A stretch of DNA of 64,000 nucleotides. Source: Acidobacteria bacterium SCN 69-37. Lineage in GTDB: Bacteria; Acidobacteriota; Vicinamibacteria; Vicinamibacterales; SCN-69-37. Both the position numbers and the translations under genes were made by a program. Shown here in pieces: positions 40,328 to 62,110 of this stretch (its first letter is position 1; every line of letters starts with the position of its first letter). The notes beneath the pieces were generated by a model that did not search any database, was not told the origin of the DNA, and saw only the letters and a program-made list of their open reading frames with translations. The stretch lies in contig MEDJ01000021.1 of assembly GCA_001724025.1 (NCBI GenBank), positions 1 through 64,000 of the forward strand, written 5' to 3'.

Positions 40328-40921
40328 TTACTTGCCCCCCAGCACGTACGCCACCAGGCTGTCGATGTCGTCGAGGCTGTGTTCGGCCACGAGTCCTTCG
40401 GGCATCAGGGAGACCGTCGATTCGGTCCGGTCCTGGATGCGGCCGACCGCGATGGGGAGCGGCCGGTCGAGGTGTTCGGCGTTCTTGAGGTACACGGCCC
40501 GGGCGTCTTCGCGGATGACGACGCCGCTCGCGTAGGTCCCGTCGGTGAGTTCGAAGATCGTCACCGCGTACTGATCGGAGATGGTCCGCGACGGCCAGAG
40601 GATCGAGTCGAGCACGTCGCGCTTGCCGAACCGGCTCGAGAGCGTCGTCAGGTCGGGACCGACGGACGTGCCGACATCGCCGAAAATGTGGCAGCTCGAG
40701 CACAGGTCCTCGTAGAGCTGGCGGCCGCGCTCGACCGACACGGTGGTTCCCGGCTTGTCGGAACCGAGCGTGTCGAGAACCTGCTGCCGGGTCATCTTCG
40801 ACCCGGGCATCGGCTCCTCGGGCGGATCCTGGCCCGCCGATCGGACCGTCGACATGCCGGCCGTGAAGAGCAGCGCGCCGATCGACGCGGCCACGAGAAA
40901 CGGAGTGCGGTGGCGATGCAT
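40328..40921 (-). CDS. c-type cytochrome (PVC-associated heme-binding domain)
   Basis: Signal MHRHRTPFLVAASIGALLFTAG; RGRQLYEDLCSSCHIFGDVGTSVGPDLTTLSSRFGKRDVLDSILWPSRTISDQYAVTIFELTDGTYASGVV. Confidence 0.88.
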   Translation of the reverse strand: MHRHRTPFLVAASIGALLFTAGMSTVRSAGQDPPEEPMPGSKMTRQQVLDTLGSDKPGTTVSVERGRQLYEDLCSSCHIFGDVGTSVGPDLTTLSSRFGKRDVLDSILWPSRTISDQYAVTIFELTDGTYASGVVIREDARAVYLKNAEHLDRPLPIAVGRIQDRTESTVSLMPEGLVAEHSLDDIDSLVAYVLGGK

Positions 40922-40971: not shown

Positions 40972-43900
40972 TCATGGCTGCAGGAACGCGAGCAGGTTCG
41001 TCAACTGGGCCTGACTCATGGCGTCGGTCAGGGAATCCAGCATGACGGTGGCCTGTTCGCGCGTGTGCGCCCGCACGGGCTTCGTCACGGTCGTCGTCGT
41101 GCCGTCGGTGCGCAGCACGGTGAAGGCCTGCGCCGTCTCGGCCACCACGAGGCCGCGGACCGTGGTGCCGTCGTTGGCCGTGAGCACGCTCGTGCGCAGC
41201 TCGGGGGCGACCTGCCGCGACGGGAACATGATGGACTCGAGCAGATCGCGGCGATTTGCCGCACGGGCCGACGACGTCAGATCGAGGGCGGCCACGCCAT
41301 GGTCGTCGCCGAGGCCGCCCGCACGATGGCACGAGGCGCAGCTGGCCTCGAAGATCGTGCGGCCGGCAGCTGCGTCGGGCTGCTGCGTGCGCGGCGTGTA
41401 GATCACCTCGTCGAAGACTTCGCCCTTGTCCAGCACGCGTCCCTGCGTGCGCGCCTGGATGCCCGTGCTGGCGCCGCGTCCGCCGCCGGGCCCCGCCGCG
41501 CCAACGGCGGCACCACGACCGGCCGCCGCGGCCGCTCCGCGGCCCGCTGCCGCCGGCGCCCCACCGGCCCTGCCTGCCGCGCCGCCGCGTCCGGCCGGCG
41601 CCATCGCGTTCAGTTCCTCGTCGGTCAGCGGCGCGAAGTCCGGCGCCTTTGCGTAGAGCATCTTCTTCTCCGCGTCGGTCACGTAGAGCGGATCGAATGC
41701 CTGGAAATACTGGCCCAGGAAGTTGGCGAACTGCGCGCCGCCCCGCCACCGGCTCGTCTGCCCGAGCACTTCCGCCAGCCGCTCCTTCTGCGCGGCCGTC
41801 CAGCCGCTCTGGACCGCGCGGAGCGCGTAGAGGTAGTGGAGCGTCAGTTCCTGGTTCGAGTTGCCCTCGGGCATCGCGGCCAGGATCTTCGTGACCGCCT
41901 CGGGCTGGCCGCCGTACGCGAGCATGAGCGCCAGCTGGCGGTTGAGCCGTTCGTCGGTCGACGGGAAGCGGTTGATGAGCGCCGCGTGCAGCCGCTGTCG
42001 ATCCGCTGCCGGCAGGCCCTCCCCGCCCGGCAGGAACGTCGTCGTGAGCATGAAGGCCCTGTAGAGCCGGAGCTGGTCGTCGACCGACCCGGCGGCCTGT
42101 TCGATCAGGGCGAGCTGGCGGTCGATGAGCGGCCGCACGCTGGCCGTGCCCGCCGTCCGCGCCCAGGCCACCATGGCCTCGGGCGCGCTGGTCGCGTTCG
42201 TATCCGTCAGCACGCGGGCCTGCCAGTCGGCGCGGCGCGTGTGCTCGAGCAGGAGGCGGCCGGCAAAGCGGACGAAACGATCGCTGTTGCCGAGCAGCGC
42301 GTAGATGTCGTCGACGGGCGCGAGGCTCTCGCGATCGGGCGACTGGCCGAGACGCACGAGCGCTTCGGCCGCGCGCCGCGTCACCATGGGATCGGCGTCG
42401 CGCAGGCCCGCGGCGGCCGTCGTGCGCACGTCCGCGCCCCCCTGCACGCCGACGACGAACATGGCGGCGGCGCGCACCATCGGCTGCGCATCGGTCGCCA
42501 GCGCGGCGAGCAGGGCCGCCGTCGGGGCGGCGCCGTGGCGCTGCATCTCGTACAGCGCGCGCGTCCGATCTGTCACGTCCGCCGACGCGTTGCGGGCGAC
42601 CTGCTCGAGCGCACTGCCGAAGGCCTGGGCTCCCATCGACGTCTTCACGCGCTCGATGGCCGCCCAGCCCCAGCTCGAGAGCGGCTGCGCCTGTCGCGTG
42701 ACGGCCAGGATGCCGGTCTTGTCGGGAGCGGCCGGGGCCGTGCCCGTGTAGCGCAGGCGCCACAGACCGCCGCGCGTGTTCCGGCCGCCGGTCGAGAAGT
42801 ACAGCATGCCGTCGGGCCCGACTTCCATGTCGGTCACGTTGAGCGGTTCCCCGTGGATCAGCTCGGCGCGATCGGTGCGCGTCGTGTAGGTGGCGCCGGC
42901 CCGCGTCAGCGGCGTGTAGAGGATGCGGCCGCGTGACCAGTCGGCTTCGAACAGCATGTCGAAGAACTGGCGCGGGTACGCGTCGCTCTGGTACGTCTCG
43001 ACCCCGACGGGAGAGCCGCGGCCCAGATCGCGGACCGGGGGCAGCGAGTCGACGTAGTAGGCCGGGTACTTACCCGATCCGTCGCGATAGCCGTAGTCCC
43101 CGTTGAGAATCTGGTGCACGGTGCGGACCTCGCGGTACCAGGGCAGGCCGATGTCCCACTCCATGTCGCTGTCGAAGAGGAACGCCTCGCCGTCGAGGTT
43201 GTAGGCGAAGTCGTACGCATTGCGGTTCCCGCCCGAGAACACGCGGAACTTGCGCTGTGCCTGATCCCACTCGAACAGCGCGCTGTGCGCTCCCTGGCGG
43301 GCACTGCGACCGAAGTTCGCGAAGTAGGGAAGGAACTGGCCGTCGACGTCTTTCAGTACGGACGACGAGAGATCCAGGTAGGGATCGGCAATCGTCTCGT
43401 TGTTGCCGACCACCACCATCCAGCTGCCGGACGGCGTGCGGCGAATCGCGTGCGGGCCGTGCTCCTGGATCGAGCCGGCCATCGCCAGCGTCTCGAACGT
43501 ATCGGCCACGTCGTCGCCGTTGGTGTCCGCCATGCGGAAGATGCCGGCGGGTGCGGCCGGACCGCGTCCGCCACGGCCGCCGGCGGCGGGCGGCGTGGTG
43601 GGCGCCGGCGGATTGGCCATCGCGCACGAGCCATACAGCACGGGGCCGTCGAACCACAGGCCCTGGCAGTTGCGGACCTGCTCGCTGATGACCTTTTCGC
43701 TCTCGTAGATGCCGTCCCCGTCGTTGTCGAGCAGCAGGCGCGGGAAGTCGTTCTCCTTCGACACGACGAGCCGCCCCTGGCTGTCGAAGGTCAGCACCAC
43801 GTAGCTGTCGCTGCGATCGACGGGGTTCACCCGCTCGATCGTGAAGTCGGGCAGCGTCCCGAACCGGACGCTGGCCACCGTCCGTTCGACGAGGCCCTCG

Positions 43901-43998
43901 AACTGGTTCTGCGAGAGTCCCTGGGAGTGGCCGGGAATCTGGTTGGCCAGCAGCAGACCGGCTGCCGCCGTCACCACAAGCATGCGTCGTCTCACCAT
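40972..43998 (-). CDS. PVC-type heme-binding CXXCH protein / putative membrane-bound dehydrogenase (beta-propeller + HEAT-like + cytochrome c)
   Basis: FEGLVERTVASVRFGTLPDFTIERVNPVDRSDSYVVLTFDSQGRLVVSKENDFPRLLLDNDGDGIYESEKVI; C-term EASCASCHRAGGLGDDHGVAALDLTSSARAANRRDLLESIMFPSRQVAPELRTS. Confidence 0.9.
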   Translation of the reverse strand: MVRRRMLVVTAAAGLLLANQIPGHSQGLSQNQFEGLVERTVASVRFGTLPDFTIERVNPVDRSDSYVVLTFDSQGRLVVSKENDFPRLLLDNDGDGIYESEKVISEQVRNCQGLWFDGPVLYGSCAMANPPAPTTPPAAGGRGGRGPAAPAGIFRMADTNGDDVADTFETLAMAGSIQEHGPHAIRRTPSGSWMVVVGNNETIADPYLDLSSSVLKDVDGQFLPYFANFGRSARQGAHSALFEWDQAQRKFRVFSGGNRNAYDFAYNLDGEAFLFDSDMEWDIGLPWYREVRTVHQILNGDYGYRDGSGKYPAYYVDSLPPVRDLGRGSPVGVETYQSDAYPRQFFDMLFEADWSRGRILYTPLTRAGATYTTRTDRAELIHGEPLNVTDMEVGPDGMLYFSTGGRNTRGGLWRLRYTGTAPAAPDKTGILAVTRQAQPLSSWGWAAIERVKTSMGAQAFGSALEQVARNASADVTDRTRALYEMQRHGAAPTAALLAALATDAQPMVRAAAMFVVGVQGGADVRTTAAAGLRDADPMVTRRAAEALVRLGQSPDRESLAPVDDIYALLGNSDRFVRFAGRLLLEHTRRADWQARVLTDTNATSAPEAMVAWARTAGTASVRPLIDRQLALIEQAAGSVDDQLRLYRAFMLTTTFLPGGEGLPAADRQRLHAALINRFPSTDERLNRQLALMLAYGGQPEAVTKILAAMPEGNSNQELTLHYLYALRAVQSGWTAAQKERLAEVLGQTSRWRGGAQFANFLGQYFQAFDPLYVTDAEKKMLYAKAPDFAPLTDEELNAMAPAGRGGAAGRAGGAPAAAGRGAAAAAGRGAAVGAAGPGGGRGASTGIQARTQGRVLDKGEVFDEVIYTPRTQQPDAAAGRTIFEASCASCHRAGGLGDDHGVAALDLTSSARAANRRDLLESIMFPSRQVAPELRTSVLTANDGTTVRGLVVAETAQAFTVLRTDGTTTTVTKPVRAHTREQATVMLDSLTDAMSQAQLTNLLAFLQP

Positions 43999-44236
43999 CT
44001 CGAGCTCCGTCTGGCCGGGACACAGCCCGACAATGATGTGTCGGGGTGTGTGATGGCCGCGTGGGTTGGAACGCTCAGCCTGGGCCGGCCGTCGTCGAGA
44101 CGCAAGCCCGGGAACCGTGTTGCGATGGGTTCCACTATACGAAACCCTGACAATGCGTGGAGCGCCCGGGAGTGCCGCACCCGTTGCGCCGCCCGCGTCG
44201 ACGGCCCAGGCGCAAGGTATTCGGGGATCCGCACGT

Positions 44237-44253
44237 GTTTCGGTGCGCGAAAC
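44237..44253. promoter_or_regulatory. Candidate operator GTTTCG-GTGCG-CGAAAC
   Basis: Perfect palindrome, extended to TGTTTCG/CGAAACA; upstream of the PVC-type dehydrogenase (start 43998). Confidence 0.6.
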
Positions 44254-44281
44254 ATGAAAGAGCGGCCCGCGGCCGCTGCAT

Positions 44282-44415
44282 CCCCCGAGGCTGAAGCCTC
44301 GGGGCTCCGGATGTCGGATGAGGCGACGTGAGCCCGTCGGAGCCCTGGGGCTTCAGCCCCAGGGGGCGCGTCGGTGTGCCCGTCCCATCCCCGAGGCTGA
44401 AGCCTCGGGGCTCCG
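44282..44415. repeat. Cluster of three palindromic repeats (+, -, +), core CCCCGAGGCTGAAGCCTCGGGGCTCCGG
   Basis: Copies at 44283-44310 and 44389-44415 identical over about 27 nt; inverted copy at 44338-44364. Confidence 0.85.
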
Positions 44416-44430
44416 GATGGCCTCCCGGCC

Positions 44431-45108
44431 TTACACGAGGATCACGTGCACCTCGCCCGGCCCGTGGACCCCGCGGCTGAGGGTGTGCTCGATGTCGGCG
44501 GTGCGGCTCGGGCCGGTGATGCAGATCAGGTTGGAGCCGGCCTCGGCCAGGTCCGGCCGGGTCAGCAGCAGATCGGGCAACGAGCGCACCAGGCGCGTGC
44601 GCTCCACGAGCGCGACGTGAATCGGCGGCAGCAGCGACGCCAGCCGCCCGCGGCCCGGTCCCGACACCAGGACGAGCGAGCCGGTTTCGGCCAGCATCGC
44701 GTCGGCACCCGTCACGCCGACGGTAGCCGTCGCGAGGGCGTCGCGAGCCGGTCCGGGACCGGCGTCGGCCTCCTGCCGGCTGATGACGAACCCGCGCGCG
44801 ACGAGCGCGTTGGCCACGCCGGGCACCGGCAGGTGGGCATCGTCCCAGAGCAGGGCGTGCCGGGACGCGGTGTCGCCCGCGATGTCGGCGATGAGCGCGG
44901 CCACGTGGTCGGCATCGATCGCCGGCGGGACGTGGACCGCCCCGCCGACCGTCTCCAGTTCCGTCGTGAAACGCGCGAGCAGATCGGCCGGCTCGGCGTC
45001 GGTCCGGTGATAGCCGCCAGGGGCATCGGGCGTGGCACCGGGCAGGACCGCGGTCTTCAGCGCGGTCCGCAGGATGTCGCGCATCTGCTGGCGGGCCTCG
45101 GGGGACAT
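44431..45108 (-). CDS. lutC: LutC/YkgG family lactate utilization protein
   Basis: VTGADAMLAETGSLVLVSGPGRGRLASLLPPIHVALVERTRLVRSLPDLL..SNLICITGPSRTADIEHTLSRGVHGPGEVHVILV. Confidence 0.92.
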   Translation of the reverse strand: MSPEARQQMRDILRTALKTAVLPGATPDAPGGYHRTDAEPADLLARFTTELETVGGAVHVPPAIDADHVAALIADIAGDTASRHALLWDDAHLPVPGVANALVARGFVISRQEADAGPGPARDALATATVGVTGADAMLAETGSLVLVSGPGRGRLASLLPPIHVALVERTRLVRSLPDLLLTRPDLAEAGSNLICITGPSRTADIEHTLSRGVHGPGEVHVILV

Positions 45109-46544
45109 CACGACTGCGGCCCCCCCGGCTTGCCGGTCTGACGTTTCTTCCAGCGGTCCTGGAAGGAATCCCCGGCCATCACGGGGAAGTCGCGCGACGC
45201 CGTCCAGCCGGCCAGCGGGCCCGGCAGGCGGCGGATCCAGCCACGCGAGGCGAGCAGGCGTGTGCCGAACGCCGCGGCCCGGCCCGCCGCGCCAAACAGC
45301 CACGGCCGCGCGGCCACGCGCCGGAACATCGCCAGCCCCTGCCCGATCCACGACGGGGCCCGTCCCTCGTCGACGCCCTTCGCGCGCAGCGTCAGCAACA
45401 TGCGCGGGATGTCGATGCGCACGGGACACACCTCGCGGCACGCGCCGCAGAGGCTGCTGGCGTGCGGCAGATCCGTCCACTCGTCCTGCCCCCACAGCGC
45501 CGGCGTGAGCACGGCGCCGACCGGACCCGGGTAGACGCTGCCGTACGCGTGCCCGCCAATCTGCTGATAGACGGGGCAGACGTTGAGACACGCGCCGCAG
45601 CGGATGCAGTAGAGGATCTCGGCCTCGGTGCTGCCGAGCACCGTCGACCGGCCGTTGTCGACGAGCACGACGTGCAGTTCTTCCGGCCCGTCGAACTCGT
45701 CCGGCCGCCGGGGCCCGGTGAGCAGGTTCGTGTAGACGGTCAGGTTCTGGCCCGTGGCGCTGCGCGCGAGCACCTGGAGTACGGTGCCGAGCGACGGAAT
45801 GTCCGGCACCAGCCGTTCGATGCCCATCATCGCCACGTGCACGCGCGGCAGCGTCGTCACCAGGCGGCCGTTGCCCTCGTTGGTGCAGATGCAGAGCGTG
45901 CCCGTACCCGCCACGCCGAAGTTCACGCCGCTGATGCCGAGATCGGCCGAGAGGAACTCCGGCCGCAGCCGTGCGCGTGCGAGCTTCGTCATCGCCGGCA
46001 CGTCGGCCACCTCCTCGTCGGTGGCCCCGAGCGTGCGGCGGAACAGGTCGGCCACGTCACTGGCCGACTTGTGGATGATCGGCATGATCACGTGCGACGG
46101 GTGATCCTGCGCGAGCTGTACGACCCACTCGCCGAGGTCCGTCTCCACGACCTGCAGACCCGCGCGTTCGAGGTGATCGTTGAGGTGGATCTCCTCGCTG
46201 ATCATCGACTTCGACTTGACGGCCTTCGTCAGGCCCCGGGCCCTGGCCAGGTCCGTGACGTAGGTGACCGCGTCCTCGGCCGTGCGCGCGTAGTGCACGT
46301 GCCCTCCGCGCGCCTCGACGTTGGTGACGAACTCGTCGAGATAGCGATCGAGGTGGGCCAGCGTGTGGGCACGGATGCGGCGCGCGTGATCGCGCCAGTC
46401 GTCGGACGCCGGCAGCCGCTCGAGACCGGCCGTCCGGCTGTCGAGGACCCGCGCGGTCACCCGGCGCAGCGTCTGGTTCAGGTGCGCGTCGGCCAGCGCC
46501 GCTTCGGTGCGCTGATGAAACGGCTGCGGGGCAGGCGTGGTCAC
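45108..46544 (-). CDS. lutB: LutB/YkgF family lactate utilization iron-sulfur protein
   Basis: KSKSMISEEIHLNDHLERAGLQVVETDLGEWVVQL..HPSHVIMPIIHKSASDVADLF..ILYCIRCGACLNVCPVYQQIGGHAYGSVYPGPVGAVLTP..CGACREVCPVRIDIPRMLL; GTG start overlapping lutA stop. Confidence 0.94.
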   Translation of the reverse strand: MTTPAPQPFHQRTEAALADAHLNQTLRRVTARVLDSRTAGLERLPASDDWRDHARRIRAHTLAHLDRYLDEFVTNVEARGGHVHYARTAEDAVTYVTDLARARGLTKAVKSKSMISEEIHLNDHLERAGLQVVETDLGEWVVQLAQDHPSHVIMPIIHKSASDVADLFRRTLGATDEEVADVPAMTKLARARLRPEFLSADLGISGVNFGVAGTGTLCICTNEGNGRLVTTLPRVHVAMMGIERLVPDIPSLGTVLQVLARSATGQNLTVYTNLLTGPRRPDEFDGPEELHVVLVDNGRSTVLGSTEAEILYCIRCGACLNVCPVYQQIGGHAYGSVYPGPVGAVLTPALWGQDEWTDLPHASSLCGACREVCPVRIDIPRMLLTLRAKGVDEGRAPSWIGQGLAMFRRVAARPWLFGAAGRAAAFGTRLLASRGWIRRLPGPLAGWTASRDFPVMAGDSFQDRWKKRQTGKPGGPQS

Positions 46545-47284
46545 GACGGGTCTCCCGGATCGAGCAGGTCGGCCACGTGCCGGACCGTCACCGGACTGCC
46601 GCGCCGGTGCAGGCCGCCGGCCATGTGCATGGCGCAGCTGACGTCGGTCACCGCGATTGTCGACGCCCCGCAGCGCTCGATGCAGTCGAGCTTGCGCGCG
46701 AGCATCGCCGACGAGATGTCGGACATCTTCACGGCGAACAGGCCGCCGAACCCGCAGCAGACGTCGTGTTCGGGCAGCGGCACGCGCGTCAGGCCGTCCA
46801 CGTGATCGATCAGCGTCGTCGGCTGATCGCGGATGCCGAGGCCGCGCAGGCCGTGGCAGCACGCGTGATACGCGACGGTCCCCTCGCCGGTGCGGCCCAG
46901 ATCCGTGACGCCGAGCTGCTCGACGAGGAACTGCGTGAACTCGAACGTCCGCGCCGCCAGGTCACGCGCGCGCGTCGCATAGACCGGGTCGTCGGCCAGC
47001 AGCGCGGCGTACTGGTGAATCACCATGTCCCCGCACGAACCCGACGGAATGACGACAGGCGCCGGGCTGGCGCTGAACACGTCGACCGTGTGCCGCGCCA
47101 GGGCCCGGGCATCGTCGCGGAAGCCGGCGTTGAAGGCCGGCTGTCCGCAGCAGGTCTGGGCGGCGGGACAGTCGACAGCAACCCCCAGCTTTTCGAGGAT
47201 GCGGACCACGGCCATCCCGGTCTCCGGGAAGAGACGATCGACCAGGCACGTGACGAGCAGTTGAACGCGGGCGATGCGGGGCAT
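46541..47284 (-). CDS. lutA: LutA/YkgE family (Fe-S)-binding protein
   Basis: LLVTCLVDRLFPETGMAVVRILEKLGVAVDCPAAQTCCGQPAFNAG..VAYHACCHGLRGLGI..DVCCGFGGLFAVKMSDIS. Confidence 0.93.
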   Translation of the reverse strand: MPRIARVQLLVTCLVDRLFPETGMAVVRILEKLGVAVDCPAAQTCCGQPAFNAGFRDDARALARHTVDVFSASPAPVVIPSGSCGDMVIHQYAALLADDPVYATRARDLAARTFEFTQFLVEQLGVTDLGRTGEGTVAYHACCHGLRGLGIRDQPTTLIDHVDGLTRVPLPEHDVCCGFGGLFAVKMSDISSAMLARKLDCIERCGASTIAVTDVSCAMHMAGGLHRRGSPVTVRHVADLLDPGDPS

Positions 47285-47348
47285 GGGATGACTCGGATCC
47301 TAGCAGCCCGCGCCCGTGAAGGGGGGATGGGAGGCTGGATGGGGCAGT

Positions 47349-47365
47349 GTTTCGCCTGCCGAAAC
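47349..47365. promoter_or_regulatory. Candidate operator GTTTCG-CCTGC-CGAAAC in divergent lutA/regulator intergenic region
   Basis: Perfect 17-bp palindrome 65 bp upstream of lutA start and about 160 bp upstream of the regulator start. Confidence 0.65.
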
Positions 47366-47523
47366 GCCGAGAATCGGAAAACCCATGGAAACAGGCCTGA
47401 ATTCGTCTTCGAGATCCCTCGGCGTGAAGCGGCGTGTCGCACCGTGCTACATTCCGCGCACCCCAGCAGGCAGAGGGATCCGGTCGCGATGGGCGCCGCC
47501 GGGTCGGAAAGCCGTATAGACGT

Positions 47524-48660
47524 ATGTCCAAGACCAGCCGTCCGTCCTATGTGATTCAGTCGGTGGTGCACGCGTCGGACGTGCTGCGGGCGTTCCGATC
47601 GCGCGGCGAGGCGCTGCGGCTCCGCGACATCGTGGAGCGCACCGGGTTCAACAAGGGGCTGTGCTTTCGCCTGCTGCACACCCTGCGGCACTGCGGGCTC
47701 GTGGAGAAGGTGGACGAGACCCGGTACCGCCTCACGTCCGAGATGCACCGCCGCAAGCGCTACCGCATCGGGTACGCGGCGCTCGGCCACGACAGTTCGT
47801 TCCAGCGGGCCGTCCAGGAGAGCCTCGTGTGGACGGCGAAGAACGAGGACATCGAACTGCTGGTGCTCGACAACCGGCGCAGTGCGAAGACCGCGCTGCG
47901 CAATGCCGATCACCTGATCCGGGAAAAGGTCGATCTGGCCATCGAATACCAGATCGACGAGGCGGCGGCCGCCGCGATCTCCGCGCGGTACGTGCAGGCC
48001 GGCATCCCGTTCATCGCCGTCCACGTGCCGCATCCGGGCGCGACCTACTACGGCGCGAACAACTACCAGGCCGGATTGCTGGCGGGCCACTACCTGGGGC
48101 GATGGGCGAAGAGCCGGTGGAACGGCCAGGTCGACGAGGTGCTGCTCATCGAGGCCGCGCGGGCCGGATCGCTCGTGCACGGCCGGCTCGACGGTGTGCT
48201 GGCCGGGCTGCGCGAGAGCCTGCGCGAGGTGATGACGACCTGCCCGGTGGTGAGCCTGGACGGCGACGGCGAGTTCAACAGGACGCTCGAGCGCGTGCGC
48301 CAGCACCTGCGCCGGTCCGATCGGAAGCGCGTACTCGTGGGCGCGATGAACGACTCGAGCGCGCTCGGCGCCACGCGCGCGTTCCAGGAATCGGGGCGCG
48401 CGGCCACCTGCGCCATCGTCGGGCAGAACGCCGAACCCGACGCGCGCGCCGAACTGCGCCAGTCGCGGACGCCGCTCATCGGATCGGTCGCGTATTTCCC
48501 CGAGCGGTACGGCGAAGAATTGATCGCCCTGGCGCTCGACGTGCTGGGGCAGCGGCCCACACCCCCGGCCAAGTTCGTGCGGCACCAGGTCATCACGGCC
48601 GGCAACCTGCACCACTTCTATCCGAACGACGCGCTGATGACGTCGGCCGCTGCCCTCTGA
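47524..48660 (+). CDS. Transcriptional regulator: IclR-type HTH fused to periplasmic-binding (LacI/PBP1-like) sensor domain
   Basis: VIQSVVHASDVLRAFRSRGEALRLRDIVERTGFNKGLCFRLLHTLRHCGLVEKVDETRYRLT (IclR wHTH) followed by DIELLVLDNRRSAKTALRNADHLIREKVDLAIEYQIDEAAAAAISARYVQAGIPFIAVHVPHPGATYYGANNYQAGLLAGHYL (PBP fold). Confidence 0.88.
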   Translation: MSKTSRPSYVIQSVVHASDVLRAFRSRGEALRLRDIVERTGFNKGLCFRLLHTLRHCGLVEKVDETRYRLTSEMHRRKRYRIGYAALGHDSSFQRAVQESLVWTAKNEDIELLVLDNRRSAKTALRNADHLIREKVDLAIEYQIDEAAAAAISARYVQAGIPFIAVHVPHPGATYYGANNYQAGLLAGHYLGRWAKSRWNGQVDEVLLIEAARAGSLVHGRLDGVLAGLRESLREVMTTCPVVSLDGDGEFNRTLERVRQHLRRSDRKRVLVGAMNDSSALGATRAFQESGRAATCAIVGQNAEPDARAELRQSRTPLIGSVAYFPERYGEELIALALDVLGQRPTPPAKFVRHQVITAGNLHHFYPNDALMTSAAAL

Positions 48661-48670
48661 ACGCGCAGGC

Positions 48671-48687
48671 GTTTCGCTGCGCGAACC
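48671..48687. promoter_or_regulatory. Candidate operator GTTTCG-CTGCG-CGAACC (one mismatch)
   Basis: In the intergenic region upstream of TonB receptor 48938, 11 bp after the regulator stop. Confidence 0.5.
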
Positions 48688-48937: not shown

Positions 48938-51900
48938 GTGAGAACTCGATTCAGGACGTGGCAAGGTCTGGCGTGTTTGCTGGTGCTGGTGTTGGCCGGT
49001 GGAGGGGGATTTCCATCGGTCGCAGCGGCGCAAACACTGACCGGTCAGATCGGCGGGACCGTCGTTGACGATCAGGGGGCGGCCGTTCCGGGCGCCACCG
49101 TGACCGCCGTGAATACGTCGACGCGCGCGAGCCGCGACGCGACGACAGATGCGCAGGGTGCATTCGTCATTACGGGCATCCTGGCGGGAACCTATGACCT
49201 CCGCGTGAGCCTGACCGGCTTCGCACCCTACGAGCAGACCGGCATTCCCGTGTCGGCCACCGAACGTGCGGCGCTGCCGACCATCCGGTTGACGGTCGGC
49301 GGCCTGGCGGAGACGGTGTCGGTGACCGCCGACGCCGCCCGGATCCAGACCCAGTCGGGCGAACGGTCGGCGACCATCAACGCCGACCAGATCCAGGACA
49401 TCGGGCTCAAGGGCCGCGACTTCATGGGCACGCTCCAGCTGCTGCCCGGCGTCATCGATACGCGCAACCGCGAGGCCCCAGGCTGGGGATCGGTCGGCAA
49501 CATGACCATCAACGGCCAGAGCTCGTTCAACTTCTCGTACGACGGCATCGTGTCGAAGGACACCGGATCGAACTCCGGCAATTACGCGGCCCCGGCGCTC
49601 GATTCGATCGCGGAAGTGAAGGTGCAGACGTCGAACTTCCAGGCCGAGTACGGCCGCAGCTCTGGCGCCAGTATCACCGTGGTCACCAAGAGCGGCAGCA
49701 GCCAGTTCCACGGCAGCGGCGCGTACTACAAGCGCCACGAAGGGCTCAACGCGAACACCTGGGAACGCGAGCGCCAGTGCAAGGCGGGCCAGCAGGCAAG
49801 CTGCGCGACACCGAGGTACCGATACGACAACATCGCGTGGACGATTGGCGGACCGGTGCTCCTGCCCGGCACTTCGTTCAACTCGAACCGCGACAAGCTG
49901 TTCTTCTTCTTTTCTCAGGACCTGCTGCCGCGCACCGATCCGGGGAATCTCCAGTTCGGACACATGCCGACCGCGGCCGAGCGCGCGGGAGACTTCTCGC
50001 AGACGGTCAACTCGTCGGGCCAGTTGCGGTACATCCGCGACCCGCTCTCGAACCTGCCGTGCAACGTGAACTCCGGCGGCGCGGGGTGCTTCCCGGGCAA
50101 CATCATCCCGGCTGACCGCATCAACCCGATCGGGCAGATGATGCTGAACCTGCTGCCACTGCCCAACGCGGATGATCCGACAGGCAACCGCGCGTACAAC
50201 TACACCTACCAGAACTATCTCGAGAAGCCGAAGCACGACAACGTGGCGCGCATCGACTGGAACGCCGCACCCGGTTCGACCTACTACACCCGGTTCGGGT
50301 TCTCGAACGAGGTCAACTCGCGCGGTGCCAATGCGTTTCTCGGCGCGGGCACCGGCAACGGCGGCAACGTCGGCTGGCCGCAGTTCGAAACGTCGTACGG
50401 CATCAAGACGTTCAGCTGGGTGAACACGTTCCTGCGCACGATCAACCCGACCACGGTGGCCGAGGTGACCATTGGGATGAACTGGGCGAAGCAGTACGTC
50501 GAGATGGTCAGCGACGAGTCGTACCGCCGGAACGACAGGCGCGCGGTGCTCGACAGCCTGCCGCAGTTCTTCCCCGAGGCCAACCCGCAGTACCTGATCC
50601 CGAACATGTCCTGGGCCGGGACCAACGCGTTGACCGACACGCGCGGCATCGCGATTTCCAACAGGTTCCCGTTCAATGCCAAGAACATCATCTGGAACTA
50701 CAACGCCAGCCTGACGAAGATCGCGGGCAGTCACAACCTGAAGGCCGGCGTGTTCATCGAGCGAACGGCGCGTCCGGCGCCGCGCGCGTCGACGTTCCAG
50801 GGGAGCTACAACTTCAACGGCAATGTCAGCAATCCGTTCGACACGAACCTCGGCTGGGCCAACGGCCTGCTCGGGTACATCAACAACTACACCGAGTCGA
50901 CGGCCAAGCCGTTCGCCGAAGGCCGCTACAACCAGACAGAGGCATTCGTTCAGGACAACTGGCGCGTCCGTCGCAACTTCACGCTCGACTACGGCGTACG
51001 CTTCTACTACATGGGCCCGACGTTCGTGGCCGATCAGGAGGTGGCGTTCTTCAATCCCGGCGATTGGAGCAGCACTTCGGCGCCGCTGCTCTTCCAGCCG
51101 GTCTGTTCGAACGGAGCCGCAAACTGTTCGGGCGCCTTGCGTGTGGCGCGCAACCCGCTGACGGGTGAAGTAGTGAACAACACCTTCATCGGCAAGCTCG
51201 TGCCGGGCAGTGGCGAGTTCACCAATGGCATGAACGTCGCGCGTCAGACGGTCTACGAGCCCACCGGCATCCTGTTCGCGCCGCGTGTCGGGTTCGCGTG
51301 GGACGTGACGGGAGACGGCCGTACGGCCATCCGCGGCGGCGCCGGTATCTTCTACGACCGGTACAGCGACGACATCATCCTGTCGCTCGTGGAACAGCCG
51401 CCGCTGATGGACACACGGCAGACCGACTTCACGACCATCCCGACGCTGCTCCAGTCGCAGCTCATCCAGAGCCCGCGCGGTGTCGAGGCGTTCGACGAGT
51501 TCAAGGTGCCGACCGTCTACAACTGGAGTTTCGGCGTGCAGCGCCAGTTGCCGTGGCAGATCGTGGCCGATGTGGCCTATGTCGGGAACGCCAACCGCAA
51601 CAACCCGACACAGATGCCGATCAACAGCTTCGCCTACGGCACGACTCGGACCGACCTCAATCCACAGAACATCGATGCGACGAATGGCACTCAATCGATG
51701 CCTGCAGACTATCTGCGGCCGTATCGCGGCTTCGGCGGCATCAACCTGCGCCAGTGGAACGGGTACGCGAACTATCACTCGATTCAGGTGTCGGTGAATC
51801 GCCGGCTCTCGAACGGCTTCGCGTGGGGGCTGTCCTACACCGGATCGCGTCGCTTCAGCCGGGGCGCCGTGAATCCGTTCTTCAGCGAGGCGCAGGACGA

Positions 51901-52531
51901 AGCTCGCAACTACAGCAAGAACGGGAGCCGGCCGCACGTCTGGAACATCAACTACAACTACATCGTGCCCGACGCCAGCCAACTGTGGGACAACCTGCTG
52001 GTGCGCGGCGTCCTCGACGGCTGGCAGGTATCAGGACAGACGCAGATCTTCTCGGGCACCTGGACGACGTTCTCCTACGGCTTCACGGGAGCGCCGTTCA
52101 GCGACATGACGGGCGGGGGTGTGGCCAATACCTCCCGCGTGGCGCTCGTCTGCGATCCGACGTTGCCGCGCGGCGAGCGGACTCTGGAACGTCAGTTCCG
52201 GACCGAGTGCGTCCAGATGCCCGGGCCAACGACCGATCCGAACGACATCTACTATCTGGGCACCGACAACAATGCCCAGTGGTTGAACGCGGGCTACGTC
52301 AATCACGACCTGACGTTGTTCAAGAATTTCCGGATGAGCGGTAGTCGTAACCTGCAGGTCCGCGTCGAGTTCTACAACCTCTTGAATTCGAACCAGTTCA
52401 CGAGCATCGACACCAGTGCGCAGTTCAATTTCGCCACTGGCGCGCAGACCGACGGCAACTTTGGCACCGTGACCGGCACGCGCGCGGCGTCGGCGCGGGT
52501 CATCCAACTCGGCCTGCGGTTCACGTTCTGA
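48938..52531 (+). CDS. TonB-dependent receptor with N-terminal carboxypeptidase regulatory-like domain
   Basis: LTGQIGGTVVDDQGAAVPGATVTAVNTSTRASRDATTDAQGAFVITGILAGTYDLRVSLTGFAPYEQTG; SSFNFSYDGIVSKDTGSNSGNYAAPALDSIAEVKVQTSNFQAEYGRSSGASITVVTKSG; ends RVIQLGLRFTF. Confidence 0.94.
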   Translation: MRTRFRTWQGLACLLVLVLAGGGGFPSVAAAQTLTGQIGGTVVDDQGAAVPGATVTAVNTSTRASRDATTDAQGAFVITGILAGTYDLRVSLTGFAPYEQTGIPVSATERAALPTIRLTVGGLAETVSVTADAARIQTQSGERSATINADQIQDIGLKGRDFMGTLQLLPGVIDTRNREAPGWGSVGNMTINGQSSFNFSYDGIVSKDTGSNSGNYAAPALDSIAEVKVQTSNFQAEYGRSSGASITVVTKSGSSQFHGSGAYYKRHEGLNANTWERERQCKAGQQASCATPRYRYDNIAWTIGGPVLLPGTSFNSNRDKLFFFFSQDLLPRTDPGNLQFGHMPTAAERAGDFSQTVNSSGQLRYIRDPLSNLPCNVNSGGAGCFPGNIIPADRINPIGQMMLNLLPLPNADDPTGNRAYNYTYQNYLEKPKHDNVARIDWNAAPGSTYYTRFGFSNEVNSRGANAFLGAGTGNGGNVGWPQFETSYGIKTFSWVNTFLRTINPTTVAEVTIGMNWAKQYVEMVSDESYRRNDRRAVLDSLPQFFPEANPQYLIPNMSWAGTNALTDTRGIAISNRFPFNAKNIIWNYNASLTKIAGSHNLKAGVFIERTARPAPRASTFQGSYNFNGNVSNPFDTNLGWANGLLGYINNYTESTAKPFAEGRYNQTEAFVQDNWRVRRNFTLDYGVRFYYMGPTFVADQEVAFFNPGDWSSTSAPLLFQPVCSNGAANCSGALRVARNPLTGEVVNNTFIGKLVPGSGEFTNGMNVARQTVYEPTGILFAPRVGFAWDVTGDGRTAIRGGAGIFYDRYSDDIILSLVEQPPLMDTRQTDFTTIPTLLQSQLIQSPRGVEAFDEFKVPTVYNWSFGVQRQLPWQIVADVAYVGNANRNNPTQMPINSFAYGTTRTDLNPQNIDATNGTQSMPADYLRPYRGFGGINLRQWNGYANYHSIQVSVNRRLSNGFAWGLSYTGSRRFSRGAVNPFFSEAQDEARNYSKNGSRPHVWNINYNYIVPDASQLWDNLLVRGVLDGWQVSGQTQIFSGTWTTFSYGFTGAPFSDMTGGGVANTSRVALVCDPTLPRGERTLERQFRTECVQMPGPTTDPNDIYYLGTDNNAQWLNAGYVNHDLTLFKNFRMSGSRNLQVRVEFYNLLNSNQFTSIDTSAQFNFATGAQTDGNFGTVTGTRAASARVIQLGLRFTF

Positions 52532-52616: not shown

Positions 52617-52982
52617 ACGCGGACACGACTCCGGACCGATCGCATCATCTGCCGCTGGCGGAACTCCGATGACTCGGCTCTCGCCGGCAGCCTCTCATCC
52701 GCGACGGACACCGTGCCACTTGCAGCCTCGCCCCTGACGCCCCGCCGGTCTACAGAGCAAAACAAATCGCAGGCGAAGAAGCGCGGACATCGGGCGCGTG
52801 GGCTGGAAACGCGGTTGTGATACCGGTCCCATCGACTGTTCATTGTTTTGCTTGGCGGAACGATCGGCCGGGATCCCAGGCCGCGTCGCATTCTCCCGGC
52901 CGCCGGGCGACAATATCGCCCTCGACTCATTCGTCGTTTCGATCTGGCCCGTGTCAGCCGTCGGGACGACCGCGGTGTCTGT

Positions 52983-55307: not shown

Positions 55308-55473
55308 CGCCCGCCTCAGAACGATTCAGAACTCTTCAAGGCCCGAAACAAAGACTCGCGACCCGTCACTCCCTAGACTCGCCGCACATCGCAATCCTGC
55401 GAGTGCAAATCGGCCCGGAAGGCGTGGGCCGTCGATGGCGCGGCTCCTCCGGAGCGGGCGCCGGGAGGACGAC

Positions 55474-58400
55474 GTGCGAAGGCTGTTGTGCATCGGCTCA
55501 CTCGTGGCCCTGGCGATGCTGGTCGCGACGACCAGCGCCTGGGCCCAGGCGGGTGAGCAGGGATCCATCACCGGCAACCTCACCGACGATCAGGGCGGCG
55601 CGCTGCCCGGCGTGACGGTGTCGGCCGTGAACCTCGCCACCAACGTGTCGACGACAGGCGTGACCAACGCGTCGGGCGTGTACCTGCTCTCTCCGATTAC
55701 CGCGGGGCGCTATCGCGTCACGTTCTCGTTGACGGGATTCACGACGGCCACGCGCGAGATCGAGGCTCGTGCCGGTGACCGCCTCCGCCTGGACGTGCCG
55801 CTGCGCGTGGGTGGGGTCGCCGAACAGGTGTCGGTCGTGGCCGAAACGCCGCTGCTCGAAACCACGACGGCCACGCGCAGCCAGGTCATCGACCAGGCGC
55901 TCGTGCAGAACCTGCCCTCGTCGGGACGCAACCCGTTCACGCTCTCGCAGAACGTCCCGGGCGTCGTCGGCGAGGCGGGGAACCGGCAGAGCATCTCGCT
56001 CCGGCCGTTCGACAACGGCGGCATGGACGGGATGAGCATCAATGGCGGCGTGGTGCGGTCGAACGCGTTCACGCTCGACGGCGCCCCGAACACCAGCCGG
56101 GAGGGGGGCACGAGCGGGAGCCTGGCGTTCGTGCCGTCGCCGGACGCCGTGCAGGAAGTGCGCGTGCAGACGAGCACCTACGACGCGCAGTTCGGCCGCA
56201 CCGGCGGCGGCACGGTGGCCGTGTCCATCAGGAGCGGGACGAACGAGTTCCGAGGGTCGGCGTATTACATCCATCGCGATGCCAACCTGAACGCGAACCT
56301 GTACCAGAACATCCGCAACGGCATCCCGAAGAGCGAGATCTTCCACTACCAGCCGGGTGGCACGATTGGCGGGCCGATCAAGCGCGATCGCACCTTCTTC
56401 TTCTATTCATTCGAGGGGCTGAAGTCCGGGCTTCCCTCCGGGGGATCGCAGCGGACGCCGACCGAACTCGAGCGCCGCGGTGACTTCTCGCAGTCGGGCG
56501 TCACCATCTATGACGTCCTGAACACGATCGACGGTGTGCCGCAGCCGTTCCCCGGCAACGTCATCCCGCAGGATCGGCTCGACCCGGTGGCGATGAACCT
56601 CCTGCAGTACATGCCCCTGCCGAACGCCGAGCCGGATGCGGCCGGGAACAACTACGTGTATCCCTCGGGCAACTCGCGCTTCGACACCTACACGTCGGGC
56701 ATCCTGCGGGTCGATCACAACTTTTCGAACAACACGCGGATCTTCGGCCGATATGCGCACAACGGGCGCCGCGAGACGCGCGCATACAACGGGCGCGAGC
56801 CTGTGGCGCGGACCGGTGGCTATCACCACCGCTGGAACAACGTGTTCAGCATCGACCTGACCTCGACCCTCACGCCTACGACCGTGTCGACGACACGCGC
56901 CGGCTGGACGCGGCATCGCCGCCTCGACAGCTCGACGGCCGAGGACATCGGCGGCTTCGACGCGTCCGTGCTCGGCTATCCGTCGTCGTTCCTCTCGGGA
57001 CTGCCGAGCCGCTTCGTACCGGTGTCGGCGACCGATTACGGCGGTGCGAGCCTCGGGCAGGGCGGCGGACAGGACGGCGTGGCCGATGACTACTACGTGT
57101 CGCAGACGTTCACGCAGATTCGCGGCCGGCACCAGTTGAAGGTCGGTGCCGAATACCGCACGGCGCGCAGCCTGGTCGAAAATCCGTATCGTGGCGCCAC
57201 GCTCGGCACCTTCACGCACAGCCGACAGTTCACGTCGCTGCGGCCGACAGTGGCCAACCTGGCGGCGGCGGACGGCGGCAACGCCTTCGCGTCGTTCCTG
57301 CTCGGCTACACGGCGTCGGGATCGGTGACGCGATCCGATCCGTTCAACTGGCGCAACTCGTACGTGGCCACGTTCATCCAGGACGACTGGCGCGTGTCGA
57401 ACCGCCTGACCGTGAATCTTGGCCTGCGCTGGGACTACGAGGTGCCGACGACCGAGCGCGACAACCGTGTGAACAACGGGTTCGATCCCGCGGCAGTGGC
57501 ACTGGTCTGTCCTGCCTGTCCGGCATCGGGTCTGGCGGCCGAACTGCGCGGCGGCCTGACGTTCGCCAACGGGGCCATCTACGATCGCGACCTGAACGAC
57601 TTCGGGCCGCGTGCCGGCTTCACGTTCCAACTGAACCAGCAGACGGTCGTGCGCGGCGGCTACGGCCTGACGTACCTGCCGGCCGATACCGACAGGGGCA
57701 CGGTGACAGGCTTCAGCCGGCAGACGCCGTACGTCGCGTCGCTCGACAGCGGGCGCACGCCCGCCAACAGGCTCAGCAACCCGTACCCGAACGGCATCCT
57801 GCAGCCGATCGGCGCCGAGGGAGGCGCGGCCACGGCCCTCGGGACCGCCATCAACTATCACACGCGCGGCCGGGAGATTCCCGAGTTCCACCAGTACTCG
57901 ATCGGCATCCAGCGCCAGTTGCCGTGGCGGAGCGTGCTCGACGTCAGCTTCGTGGGCAGCGCGACGCGCAAGCGGCCGGTGTCGCTGCCGGTCAACGATC
58001 TGTCGCCCGATCAGATCGCGCTCGGGGACGCGTACCTGAACGCGCTGGTGTCGAATCCCTTCGTCGGCCTGATGCCGGACGGTGGCGCCCTCAACACCGC
58101 GGCCACCGTGCAGCGTCGTCAGCTGCTGCGACCGTACCCGCAGTTCGGCGATATGAACGAGCAGTTGCTGCCGCTCGGCACGGCCGACTACGCCGGCATT
58201 CAGGTGACGTGGGAGAAGCGCCTGTCGCAGGGGATCCACGTGCTGCTCGGGTACACGGGATCGCGAAGCACCGAGGCACTCTCGCCGCTCAACCAGGGCG
58301 AGCCGCTCTACAACCAGCTGACGTCGACGCATCGGCCGCACGTGCTGCGTATCTCCGGCGGCTGGACCGTACCGGACTTCGACGATCGCGGCTGGTTCAT

Positions 58401-58878
58401 GCGGCACATCGTCGGCGGCTGGTCCCTGAACGCGGTGACTTTCCTCCGATCGGGCACGCCGATCAACATGCCGGGCAACGTGGATCTGATTGGCGACCCG
58501 AAGGTCGCTCACCCGACACCGGCGCGCTGGTTCAACACGTGCACACTGACGGTGGCGGGCACGCGTCAGGGGTGCGTGAGCGACAGCGAGCAGCCAGCCT
58601 TCCAGATCCGGCCCGACAACGCGCTCGACACCACGGGCGACCGGCTCGAGGGCGTGATGCGTCACGATCCGTTCTACATGGATTTCTCGTTCTTCAAGAC
58701 GATCCGGACCGCGAGCCGGGTCGACTTCCAGATTCGTGTCGAGATGTTCAATGCCACCAACGTCGTGCAGTGGGGCACCCCCAACACGACGGTCGCGAAC
58801 GTGAATTTCGGCACGATCGCCGAGAACCAGGCGAACGATCCGCGATCCGTCCAGCTCCAGTTCAGGGTGAGCTACTGA
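55474..58878 (+). CDS. TonB-dependent receptor with N-terminal carboxypeptidase regulatory-like domain
   Basis: GTG start VRRLLCIGSLVALAMLVATTSAWAQ; GSITGNLTDDQGGALPGVTVSAVNLATNVSTTGVTNASGVYLLSPITAGRYRVTFSLTGFTT; AFTLDGAPNTSREGGTSGSLAFVPSPDAVQEVRVQTSTYDAQFGRTGGGTVAVSIRSGTNEFRG. Confidence 0.93.
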   Translation: MRRLLCIGSLVALAMLVATTSAWAQAGEQGSITGNLTDDQGGALPGVTVSAVNLATNVSTTGVTNASGVYLLSPITAGRYRVTFSLTGFTTATREIEARAGDRLRLDVPLRVGGVAEQVSVVAETPLLETTTATRSQVIDQALVQNLPSSGRNPFTLSQNVPGVVGEAGNRQSISLRPFDNGGMDGMSINGGVVRSNAFTLDGAPNTSREGGTSGSLAFVPSPDAVQEVRVQTSTYDAQFGRTGGGTVAVSIRSGTNEFRGSAYYIHRDANLNANLYQNIRNGIPKSEIFHYQPGGTIGGPIKRDRTFFFYSFEGLKSGLPSGGSQRTPTELERRGDFSQSGVTIYDVLNTIDGVPQPFPGNVIPQDRLDPVAMNLLQYMPLPNAEPDAAGNNYVYPSGNSRFDTYTSGILRVDHNFSNNTRIFGRYAHNGRRETRAYNGREPVARTGGYHHRWNNVFSIDLTSTLTPTTVSTTRAGWTRHRRLDSSTAEDIGGFDASVLGYPSSFLSGLPSRFVPVSATDYGGASLGQGGGQDGVADDYYVSQTFTQIRGRHQLKVGAEYRTARSLVENPYRGATLGTFTHSRQFTSLRPTVANLAAADGGNAFASFLLGYTASGSVTRSDPFNWRNSYVATFIQDDWRVSNRLTVNLGLRWDYEVPTTERDNRVNNGFDPAAVALVCPACPASGLAAELRGGLTFANGAIYDRDLNDFGPRAGFTFQLNQQTVVRGGYGLTYLPADTDRGTVTGFSRQTPYVASLDSGRTPANRLSNPYPNGILQPIGAEGGAATALGTAINYHTRGREIPEFHQYSIGIQRQLPWRSVLDVSFVGSATRKRPVSLPVNDLSPDQIALGDAYLNALVSNPFVGLMPDGGALNTAATVQRRQLLRPYPQFGDMNEQLLPLGTADYAGIQVTWEKRLSQGIHVLLGYTGSRSTEALSPLNQGEPLYNQLTSTHRPHVLRISGGWTVPDFDDRGWFMRHIVGGWSLNAVTFLRSGTPINMPGNVDLIGDPKVAHPTPARWFNTCTLTVAGTRQGCVSDSEQPAFQIRPDNALDTTGDRLEGVMRHDPFYMDFSFFKTIRTASRVDFQIRVEMFNATNVVQWGTPNTTVANVNFGTIAENQANDPRSVQLQFRVSY

Positions 58879-59161: not shown

Positions 59162-59824
59162 ATGGTTCGACGTTTCGCTTCACCGTTCGTCCTCCTGCTG
59201 TTCGTCGCCACGATCGGGGCGCGGTCGGCGGGCACGCGGGTGCTTGTGTTCCCCGGGGCTGAAGCCCCGGGGCTCCATCTGATCGAGCCGGCGCCCGGCG
59301 CTCAGGTGCCGGATCGGCCGTGGACGATGGAGGAACTGTTGCCGGCGATGGCTGATCTCGAATCGGGACGGAACTGGATGCAGGGTGGTCGCGTTTTCGA
59401 GCAGGCGGGCTGCGGTATCTGCCACGCGATGAGTACGTACTGGGGCGGCAACGGTCTGGCGCCCGACCTGACAGCTGTGGCCTCCAAGATGACGCGCGAC
59501 GCGATCCTGCAGTCGATCCTCGAACCTTCGGCCGCGTTGAACGGGCAGTATTACCACACCGAGTTCACGCTGAAAGACGGGACCGTCGTCCGTGGAACGG
59601 TCGTCGACGCCGAGGGCAACGCCCTGATCGTCGCGCCCGTGATGATGGTGCCCGACGTCACGATCCGCATCGCGAAGGCCGACATCGCGTCCGAAGCGCC
59701 GTCGCCGGTCTCGCCGATGCCGGCCGGTCTGCTCAATCCGTTTTCGCGAGGACAGATTCTCGATCTCTTGGCTTTTCTCGACGCCGGCGGCAATCCCGAC
59801 GCGGCGGTCTATCAGCGGCGGTAA
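59162..59824 (+). CDS. Exported c-type cytochrome
   Basis: MVRRFASPFVLLLFVATIGA signal; RVFEQAGCGICHAMSTYWGGNGLAPDLTAVASKMTRDAILQSILEPSAALNGQYYHTEFTLKDGTVVRGTVV. Confidence 0.87.
   Translation: MVRRFASPFVLLLFVATIGARSAGTRVLVFPGAEAPGLHLIEPAPGAQVPDRPWTMEELLPAMADLESGRNWMQGGRVFEQAGCGICHAMSTYWGGNGLAPDLTAVASKMTRDAILQSILEPSAALNGQYYHTEFTLKDGTVVRGTVVDAEGNALIVAPVMMVPDVTIRIAKADIASEAPSPVSPMPAGLLNPFSRGQILDLLAFLDAGGNPDAAVYQRR
59251..59276. repeat. Palindromic repeat CCCCGGGGCTGAAGCCCCGGGGCTCC inside cytochrome CDS
   Basis: Perfect 10-bp arms, 2-nt centre; read in frame as FPGAEAPGLH. Confidence 0.85.
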
Positions 59825-59842: not shown

Positions 59843-62110
59843 ATGTCAATGCGTGTCGACCGATTTCGACTCAGAGGCTTCATCGCGGCTGTACTGGCTG
59901 CCACCGCGCTGCTGACGAGCGCCTCGCCCCGGCTGGCCGGCGAGCAGGGCGCCTCGCCGTCGCCGGGGCAGGGCCCGGGAGGCGGCCGCAACTTCTCGCT
60001 GATCCAGGAATATCCCGACGACCCCAACGAGGTGATCCAGGCGCTCGACGGCTTCACCGTCGAGATCGTGGCGAAAGCCGACCGCGTGAAGCAGGGCTCG
60101 TGGATCAGCCTCACCGAGGACGATCAGGGGCGTTTGATTCTCGGCGCGAACGAGCAGCAGCCGTTCACGCGGCTCACGCTCGACGCACAGGGGCGCGTGA
60201 CGAAGAACGAGACCATCTTCACGCCCGTCTCCGAATCGATGGGCACGCTCTGGCACGACGGCGCGCTCTACGTGCAGGGCGGACGCCTGCCGCAGACGTT
60301 CACCGAGACGATCGACAACCCCGGCTTCGGCAGGCAGAGCGGTCAGGCGGGTCTGCACGTACTCCGCGATCCGAAGAGTGACGGCTCGTTCACCGACGTC
60401 GAGACGCTGCGGACGTGGGATGGTCATGAGGGCGGACACAGCGACCACGGCATCCACGACCTGCAGGTGGCGCCCGACGGGCAGCACTTCTACATCATCA
60501 ACGGCAACGGCGTGGTGCCGCCGTCCGACGTGTCGCCGAACTCGCCGCTCCGCCACTACGGCGACGATCGGATCATCCCGAAACTCGGCGACTTCACGGA
60601 TCGGATCAACGGCGAGCGTCCGCCGGCGGGATACCTCGCCCGTACGGATTTCCAGGCGAAGGACCTGCACCTGGTCGCCGGCGGCATGCGGAATGCGCTG
60701 CACTTCGCCTGGAACGCCGACGGCGACATTTTCTCGTTCGACAGCGACATGGAACCCGAATTCGGCGTGCCGTGGTACCGGCCGGTGCGCGTCTTCTGGA
60801 TGCCGAGCGGCGCGGACCTCGGCTACCGCGGCAACAGCGGCAAGTACCCGACGTACTACGAGGACACCATCCCCCCGCTCGTCGACATCGGGCTCGGCAG
60901 CCCCGTGGGCGTCACCTTTGGCTACGAGACGCGCTTCCCGGCGGCGTACCAGCGCGCGTTCTTCGTCGCGGACAACAACTACGGCCGGATCATCGCCGTC
61001 CACCTGACCCCGCAGGGCAGCGGCTGGGCCGCGACGAGCTGGGAGAATTTCGTCTGGCCGAAGTCGCTTTACGACAACGCACAGTCAATGCCGCACAACG
61101 TGACCGACATGCTGGTGGCGCGCGACGGCACGTTCTACTACGTCATCGGCAACAGGCGGACGCAGTCGTACCTGATGCGCGTCAGGTACACGGGCACGCA
61201 GTCGACGGCCAGAGTCGAGTATCGCCACCAGGACGGCGCGCAGGCACGGGCCGTGCGGCGGTCGCTCGAGGCGTTCCACTGGACGACAGGCGATTCCCGG
61301 GCCGTCGACGCGGCCTGGCCGCACCTGGGCAGCGAGGATCGATTCCTCCGCTATGCCGCCCGCGTCGCGCTCGAAACCGTCCCGTCATCGTCGTGGCAGG
61401 CACGGGCCACGGGCGAGCGGGATGCCGCCACCGCGATGGGCGCATTGCTGGCGCTGGCGCGTGTGGGCGGGCCTGACGCCAGCGAGGCCGTGTTCACGGC
61501 GCTCGCGCGCTTCCCACTGTCGGCACTATCGGATCCGTTGCGGATGCGGAAGCTGCGCATTATCGAGGTGGCCGTCAGCCGGAACGGCCGACCCTCGACC
61601 GATGCCGTGGCGCGTGTGGTGGCGGACGTCGACGGCGTGTTTCCGGGATCGTCGTTCGAGCTCAACACCGAGATGTCGCAGATCCTCGCGGCCTTCGACG
61701 CCTCGTCGGTCGTCCCCAAGACGATGCGCCTGGTGCGACAGTCGCCGATCTACCAGGAGCAGTTCGCCTATCGCTACAACATCCGCGGGGTGACGACGGG
61801 GTGGACGCCCGACCTGCGGCGCGAGTTCTTCCAGTGGTTCAACGAGGACCACACCAACACCCCGAAGGCGTACTTCTACCGCGAGTGGTTCACGCGCGTG
61901 AACCAGCAGCCGCGCCTGGCCGGGAACGCGGGGCCATTGAACACGCTGCGGGCGCAGGCGATCGAGACGCTGACGGATGCGGAGAAGGGCGACGCGTCAC
62001 TGGCTGCCGTACTCGACGCCTATACGCCACCAGCGGCAGGCCGCGGACGTGGCAACAACCCGTTCGGCGGCGCCCCACCGGTACCCGGTCGCGGGCAAGG
62101 CGCGCCATGA
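59843..62110 (+). CDS. PVC-type putative membrane-bound dehydrogenase / beta-propeller (aldose sugar dehydrogenase-like)
   Basis: [182 protein letters not shown]. Confidence 0.88.

Follow-up and report, generated by a model that had tools for sequence, protein, structure and literature searches.

A conserved palindrome as predicted operator of an IclR-HTH/RbsB-sensor regulator linked to rhamnose and lactate genes in Acidobacteriota

The window analyzed here is a 64,000-nucleotide stretch of contig MEDJ01000021.1 (C21 in the coordinates below) from Acidobacteria bacterium SCN 69-37, a member of the Vicinamibacterales. It contains the lactate oxidation genes lutABC and a divergently transcribed regulator gene, together with TonB-dependent receptors, PVC-type dehydrogenase-like genes and a 3-keto-disaccharide hydrolase (DUF1080) gene (Table 1), and the intergenic regions of this cluster carry copies of the 17-letter palindrome GTTTCG-N5-CGAAAC. 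A sequence-only reading of the window had proposed the copies at 44237, 47349, and 48671 as operators of the regulator. Their coordinates and sequences proved correct, and all three are intergenic by coding-potential gene calls; a one-mismatch site at 62118 and two-mismatch sites at 44129 and 52845 had been overlooked. Intergenic labels, here and below, come from a simple codon-usage gene caller trained on nine window genes and should be read as approximate, particularly for distant genomes whose base composition differs; in some loci of family f24 the caller left several genes uncalled, the regulator among them.

The two perfect copies in the window are the only ones in the 4,432,721 bases of the genome, and a reversed control pattern returned no perfect copy in the same scan of 4.43 Mb. 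With up to one mismatch allowed, 13 sites occur genome-wide. Six of them (C21:44237, 47349, 48671, 62118, 72125, and 72222), all intergenic, fall within 28 kb, where 0.08 would be expected under a uniform distribution (Poisson P(≥6) = 4e-10, for a span picked post hoc). The last two form a one-mismatch pair just past the window end, before a second DUF1080 gene (C21:70838). The remaining seven sites include six in coding DNA and a single intergenic one, adjoining an IS-like gene; six of the seven intergenic sites of the genome are located inside C21:44237–72238.

Homologs of the regulator were found in 25 of 162 genomes of the order, about 20 of them as strong matches. From these we took 22 upstream regions of 400 bp each (one of 341 bp), excluding the window, and ranked without a seed all 53,248 palindromes formed by 4096 hexamers and 13 spacings. 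GTTTCG-N5-CGAAAC ranked first, being present in 15/22 regions at up to two mismatches; other spacings of this half-site gave 0–3 regions. No palindrome with three or more A/T letters per half exceeded six regions in any of 23 dinucleotide-shuffled sets; GC-rich palindromes scored 10–14 in the shuffled sets, i.e., composition noise. The conservation upstream of orthologous regulator genes, on which the earlier proposal depended, is thus strongly borne out. The same holds for site placement, as random scatter including coding DNA is the opposite of what we observed both in this genome and at the regulator loci, where sites with up to one mismatch are intergenic in 15 cases and coding in one, despite ninefold more coding DNA. 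At the same loci, none of the 59 alternative orderings of the half-site letters has more than two intergenic matches.

Alignment of the sites yields the consensus YGTTTCGC-N3-GCGAAACR, with 1–2 bits per position in the half-sites and almost none in the flanks; the half-site values, unlike those of the flanks, are inflated by site selection. When 396 genomes of the phylum were searched with a profile, 44 proved to have the family, and genomes of family f24 hold as many as five copies. De novo ranking of 20 additional upstream regions, taken from the same search, returned ATTTCG-N5-CGAAAT and ATTTCA-N5-TGAAAT, which have the same core and spacing, and the predicted operator of the family is therefore close to RTTTYRC-N3-GYRAAAY.

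Sites also recur before candidate target genes in related genomes. In the sister genomes G064 and G062 they precede the regulator, a TonB receptor, and a DUF1080 gene; the site at 62118 has its counterparts at the same place in locus L063 (position 7860) and before the DUF1080 gene of G062. A further site in G064, on contig C176, was dropped, as it looks coding on a reading of the sequence. All three perfect sites in G061 are intergenic, one before the regulator and two before TonB receptors, one of which adjoins RhaEW, and another TonB gene has a one-mismatch site in front of it. A perfect site before a TonB gene was also observed in G030. Two sites are located in the promoter region of the kinase–RhaEW genes at locus L079, and at L146 sites precede both the regulator/GH78 region and RhaI. 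The L067 regulator has a perfect site together with rhamnose genes. Among the targets claimed by the sequence-only reading, the regulator/lutA pair and the TonB receptor have strong support, the latter being repeated in four genomes.

The regulator combines two domains that belong to different families. Its N-terminus matches HTH_IclR (PF09339; 44.4 bits against a cut-off of 22), a winged helix-turn-helix (HTH), and residues 117–370 of the scanned open reading frame match Peripla_BP_4 (80.3 bits against 35.1). In the AlphaFold model (mean predicted local distance difference test score, pLDDT, 79; eight sequences) a winged HTH is joined to a sensor domain, and the best Foldseek matches of the model are ribose-binding proteins (top E 7.9e-18). 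Pfam detected neither the IclR C-terminal effector domain nor a LacI-type HTH in this protein, and the regulator is accordingly an IclR-type HTH on an RbsB-like sensor, a full member of neither family. It shares the N-terminal winged HTH with IclR-family regulators but has the RbsB-like sensor in place of their GAF-like effector domain. By description, AraR of Bacillus subtilis, in which a GntR HTH precedes a LacI-like sensor, has a similar design; a foreign HTH on a sugar-binding-protein sensor is common to both, whereas HTH family, operator, and lineage differ. The lactate regulators LutR and LldR, which belong to the GntR family, likewise control lactate-use genes but are proteins of another family. 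LacI-family sugar regulators resemble the window protein in having a cytoplasmic sensor of the periplasmic-binding-protein type behind the HTH and a palindromic operator, and differ in the HTH itself and in the length of the site (a 17-bp core here, 20-bp palindromes for LacI-type rhamnose regulators; PMC3870299). In the literature covered, which included few subscription papers, we found no description of an IclR/periplasmic-binding-protein fusion regulator or of an acidobacterial rhamnose regulon controlled by an IclR-type regulator.

The gene neighborhoods of the homologs point to the plant sugar L-rhamnose. They contain the mutarotase RhaM, a triosephosphate isomerase (TIM)-barrel isomerase, an FGGY kinase, the bifunctional RhaEW (at locus L068 an equivalog-level NCBIfam match), a fused ATP-binding cassette (ABC) permease/binding protein, and GH78 and GH106 rhamnosidases. 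Lactate genes occur among them: lutB is clustered with rhaI, the regulator, rhaEW, and rhaB at L161 and L162 (the latter also with lutA), and lutA, lutB, and rhamnose genes surround the regulator at L146. The RhaEW route leads to L-lactate, and LutABC oxidizes L-lactate to pyruvate, which would explain why lactate genes fall under this regulator. In origin, the family is thus quite probably a rhamnose regulator of Acidobacteriota. Neighborhoods with RhaEW, RhaI, RhaB, RhaM, an ABC transporter, and rhamnosidases are shared with the known L-rhamnose regulators (RhaR, RhaS, and others; PMC3870299). The survey of rhamnose regulons that describes them assigns the regulators to the AraC, DeoR, and LacI families, and neither IclR nor Acidobacteria appears in its text (PMC3870299).

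Taking these observations together, we consider it quite probable that the regulator encoded at 47524–48660 uses the palindrome as its operator and that the window copy is a rewired member of this rhamnose-derived family. A dimer would probably bind the palindrome through the IclR-type winged HTH, and binding of a small sugar-like molecule to the RbsB-like domain would make the protein release DNA or rearrange; repression with induced release is the default model. The predicted targets are the regulator gene itself, lutABC, the TonB receptor(s), and the DUF1080 genes at 62454 and C21:70838 together with the genes behind each, with the dehydrogenase at 40972 as a probable addition. As relatives of the regulator sit with RhaEW, a source of L-lactate, lutABC would complete the pathway. 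The window copy would then be a duplicated or rewired branch that has retained the operator and whose inducer is probably different from, but related to, that of its relatives.

Several observations weigh against this assignment. Seven of the 22 homolog upstream regions have no site at up to two mismatches, including the rhamnose cluster of the own-genome paralog, in which no operator was found between genes at that threshold or with the relaxed consensus. Genomes that lack the regulator have perfect sites too, many of them in coding DNA and some between genes, and a perfect site was accordingly rejected as a marker of the regulator. The dehydrogenase, also among the targets first claimed, is the weakest of them, as the site has no counterpart at the same gene in the two sister genomes. 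Finally, a promoter scan found no sigma-70-like promoter around the sites, so that their position does not reveal the sign of control.

In the tree, the window protein and its homologs from G064 and G062 form a three-member subclade (support 100/100) nested among rhamnose-cluster regulators, and the paralog (C24:101825; 63% identical to the window regulator) is located in a neighboring branch. The paralog itself sits in a full L-rhamnose cluster (L068, G000:C24:92001–112000). De novo palindrome searches in the near relatives L068, L065, L066, and L046 alone gave GC-rich noise only. The rhamnose link, the extension of the site cluster past 62 kb, and the site-free paralog are additions to the earlier reading.

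The alternative that survives best, though we hold it to be unlikely, is that site and regulator are paired as proposed but the window copy still senses L-rhamnose, which is presumably the inducer of its relatives, and that the cluster is no more than the branch of rhamnose use that handles lactate and uptake. The nesting of the subclade and the adjacency of lut and rhamnose genes elsewhere in Acidobacteriota agree with it. On the other hand, G064 has the regulator and the cluster, whereas RhaM and RhaEW were not detected there, and no rha gene is among the own-genome genes with sites. Moreover, residue 167 is histidine in all three subclade members and aspartate or glutamate in all 24 other aligned homologs; it aligns with Asp89 of Escherichia coli RbsB, which we take to be a sugar-contacting residue. 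The subclade also has L87 and R119 in common, in contrast to Q87 and Y119 of close rhamnose-cluster homologs, the own paralog included; distant homologs vary at these two positions, and of the three residues the alignment supports pocket placement for 167 alone. From these three altered sensor-domain residues we infer that the window copy has kept its operator and changed its inducer. In its broadest form, the proposal is that a phylum-wide IclR-HTH/RbsB-sensor family with the operator RTTTYRC-N3-GYRAAAY acts as a rhamnose-to-lactate regulator of Acidobacteriota, and that in one lineage a duplicate with an unchanged operator acquired an altered sugar pocket and was rewired to a cluster for lactate oxidation and TonB uptake and for a putative 3-keto-sugar route in the periplasm; this seems to us as likely to be right as wrong.

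An improbable alternative accepts the palindrome as real but assigns it to a different transcription factor with the same targets. In some regulator-free genomes perfect sites lie between genes, with GTTTCGC-N3-GCGAAAC in family f14 as the notable case, and the window cluster also includes a winged-helix/PD40 gene; yet the regulator gene is the feature common to the 22 upstream regions, whose neighbors vary, and the f14 sites that were checked adjoin genes of no related function (citrate synthase, DUF411, radical SAM). That the palindromes arose by chance in a handful of intergenic regions is a negligible prospect: the eight matches at up to two mismatches in the window (dinucleotide-shuffle mean 2.96) were reached in 2/100 shuffles, but the genome-wide clustering, the conservation among homologs, and the shuffle controls led us to reject such an origin.

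If correct, the assignment supplies a predicted operator, together with its gene set, for a type of regulator that we did not find described, in a phylum where characterized sugar regulons are few, and ties LutABC to rhamnose catabolism via a shared regulator. It would also exemplify, in nature, a duplicated regulator whose DNA site is retained and whose sensor domain changes. Given several paralogs per genome in some members, the family may serve as a handle on carbohydrate use in soil Acidobacteriota.

Table 1. Predicted operators and surrounding genes in the window
Feature	Position	Strand	Remarks
Small protein, CSSCH motif, signal-like N-terminus	40328..40921	-	Downstream of dehydrogenase; read from translation; no Pfam match
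PVC-type heme-binding dehydrogenase-like protein, HEAT repeats and cytochrome c domain	40972..43998	-	Pfam; TIGR02603 above cut-off, TIGR02604 below
Weak second site, 2 mismatches	44129..44145		Shares intergenic region of 44237 site
Predicted operator, perfect, GTTTCGGTGCGCGAAAC	44237..44253		About 240 bp upstream of PVC-type dehydrogenase
lutC, LUD domain	44431..45114	-	Pfam
lutB, LUD domain, 4Fe-4S, LutB_C	45108..46544	-	Pfam
lutA, cysteine-rich CCG domain	46541..47284	-	Pfam
Predicted operator, perfect, GTTTCGCCTGCCGAAAC	47349..47365		Between divergent lutA and regulator; also upstream of homologous regulators at 15/22 other loci
Regulator	47524..48660	+	IclR-type winged HTH (residues ~12–70) fused to RbsB-like periplasmic-binding-protein sensor (~80–360)
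Predicted operator, 1 mismatch, GTTTCGCTGCGCGAACC	48671..48687		Upstream of TonB receptor; same placement in sister genomes L063, L064
TonB-dependent receptor (CarboxypepD_reg, Plug, OMP_b-brl_4)	48938..52531	+	Pfam
Weak site, 2 mismatches	52845..52861		Before winged-helix/PD40 gene; uncertain regulon member
Second TonB-type receptor	55435..58878	+	Same sequence cluster as first receptor
Heme-binding CxxCH domain protein	59162..59824	+	TIGR02603
Second PVC-type dehydrogenase-like protein	59849..62110	+	Weak TIGR02604; sequence cluster shared with 40972 gene
Predicted operator, 1 mismatch, GTTCCGCGTGACGAAAC	62118..62134		Upstream of 3-keto-disaccharide hydrolase gene
3-keto-disaccharide hydrolase (DUF1080), signal-like N-terminus	62454..63350	+	PF06439; 72% identity to syntenic L063 gene
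TIM-barrel sugar isomerase-like gene, start	63518..64000	+	UPF0261 and FAD-oxidase genes next, past window

Past the window end, the DUF1080 and TIM-barrel genes are followed by UPF0261 and GlcD-like flavin adenine dinucleotide (FAD)-oxidase genes (C21:64425–67332, L055), an order that is kept in G064. DUF1080 proteins include a characterized 3-ketotrehalose hydrolase and a proposed 3'-ketolactose hydrolase (PMC9007349). In the literature covered, nothing was found on UPF0261 together with DUF1080. The conserved gene order possibly represents a 3-keto-sugar pathway; that the genes behind the 62118 site and the PVC-type heme proteins together form a periplasmic glycoside oxidation route is a guess.

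Between the two TonB receptors, positions 52995–55307 encode an OmpR-type winged helix (Trans_reg_C) fused to PD40 beta-propeller repeats. In the regulator-free f14 genomes (L096–L098, L101, L102), the perfect intergenic sites recur before a DUF411 gene adjoining citrate synthase and LepA genes, and are perhaps the site of another transcription factor. A repetitive extragenic palindromic (REP)-like repeat, CCCCGAGGCTGAAGCCTCGGGGCTCCGGATG, is present at 44283–44313 and 44389–44419 as identical copies 106 bp apart; with up to one mismatch, the core of this repeat is found at about 113 places genome-wide.

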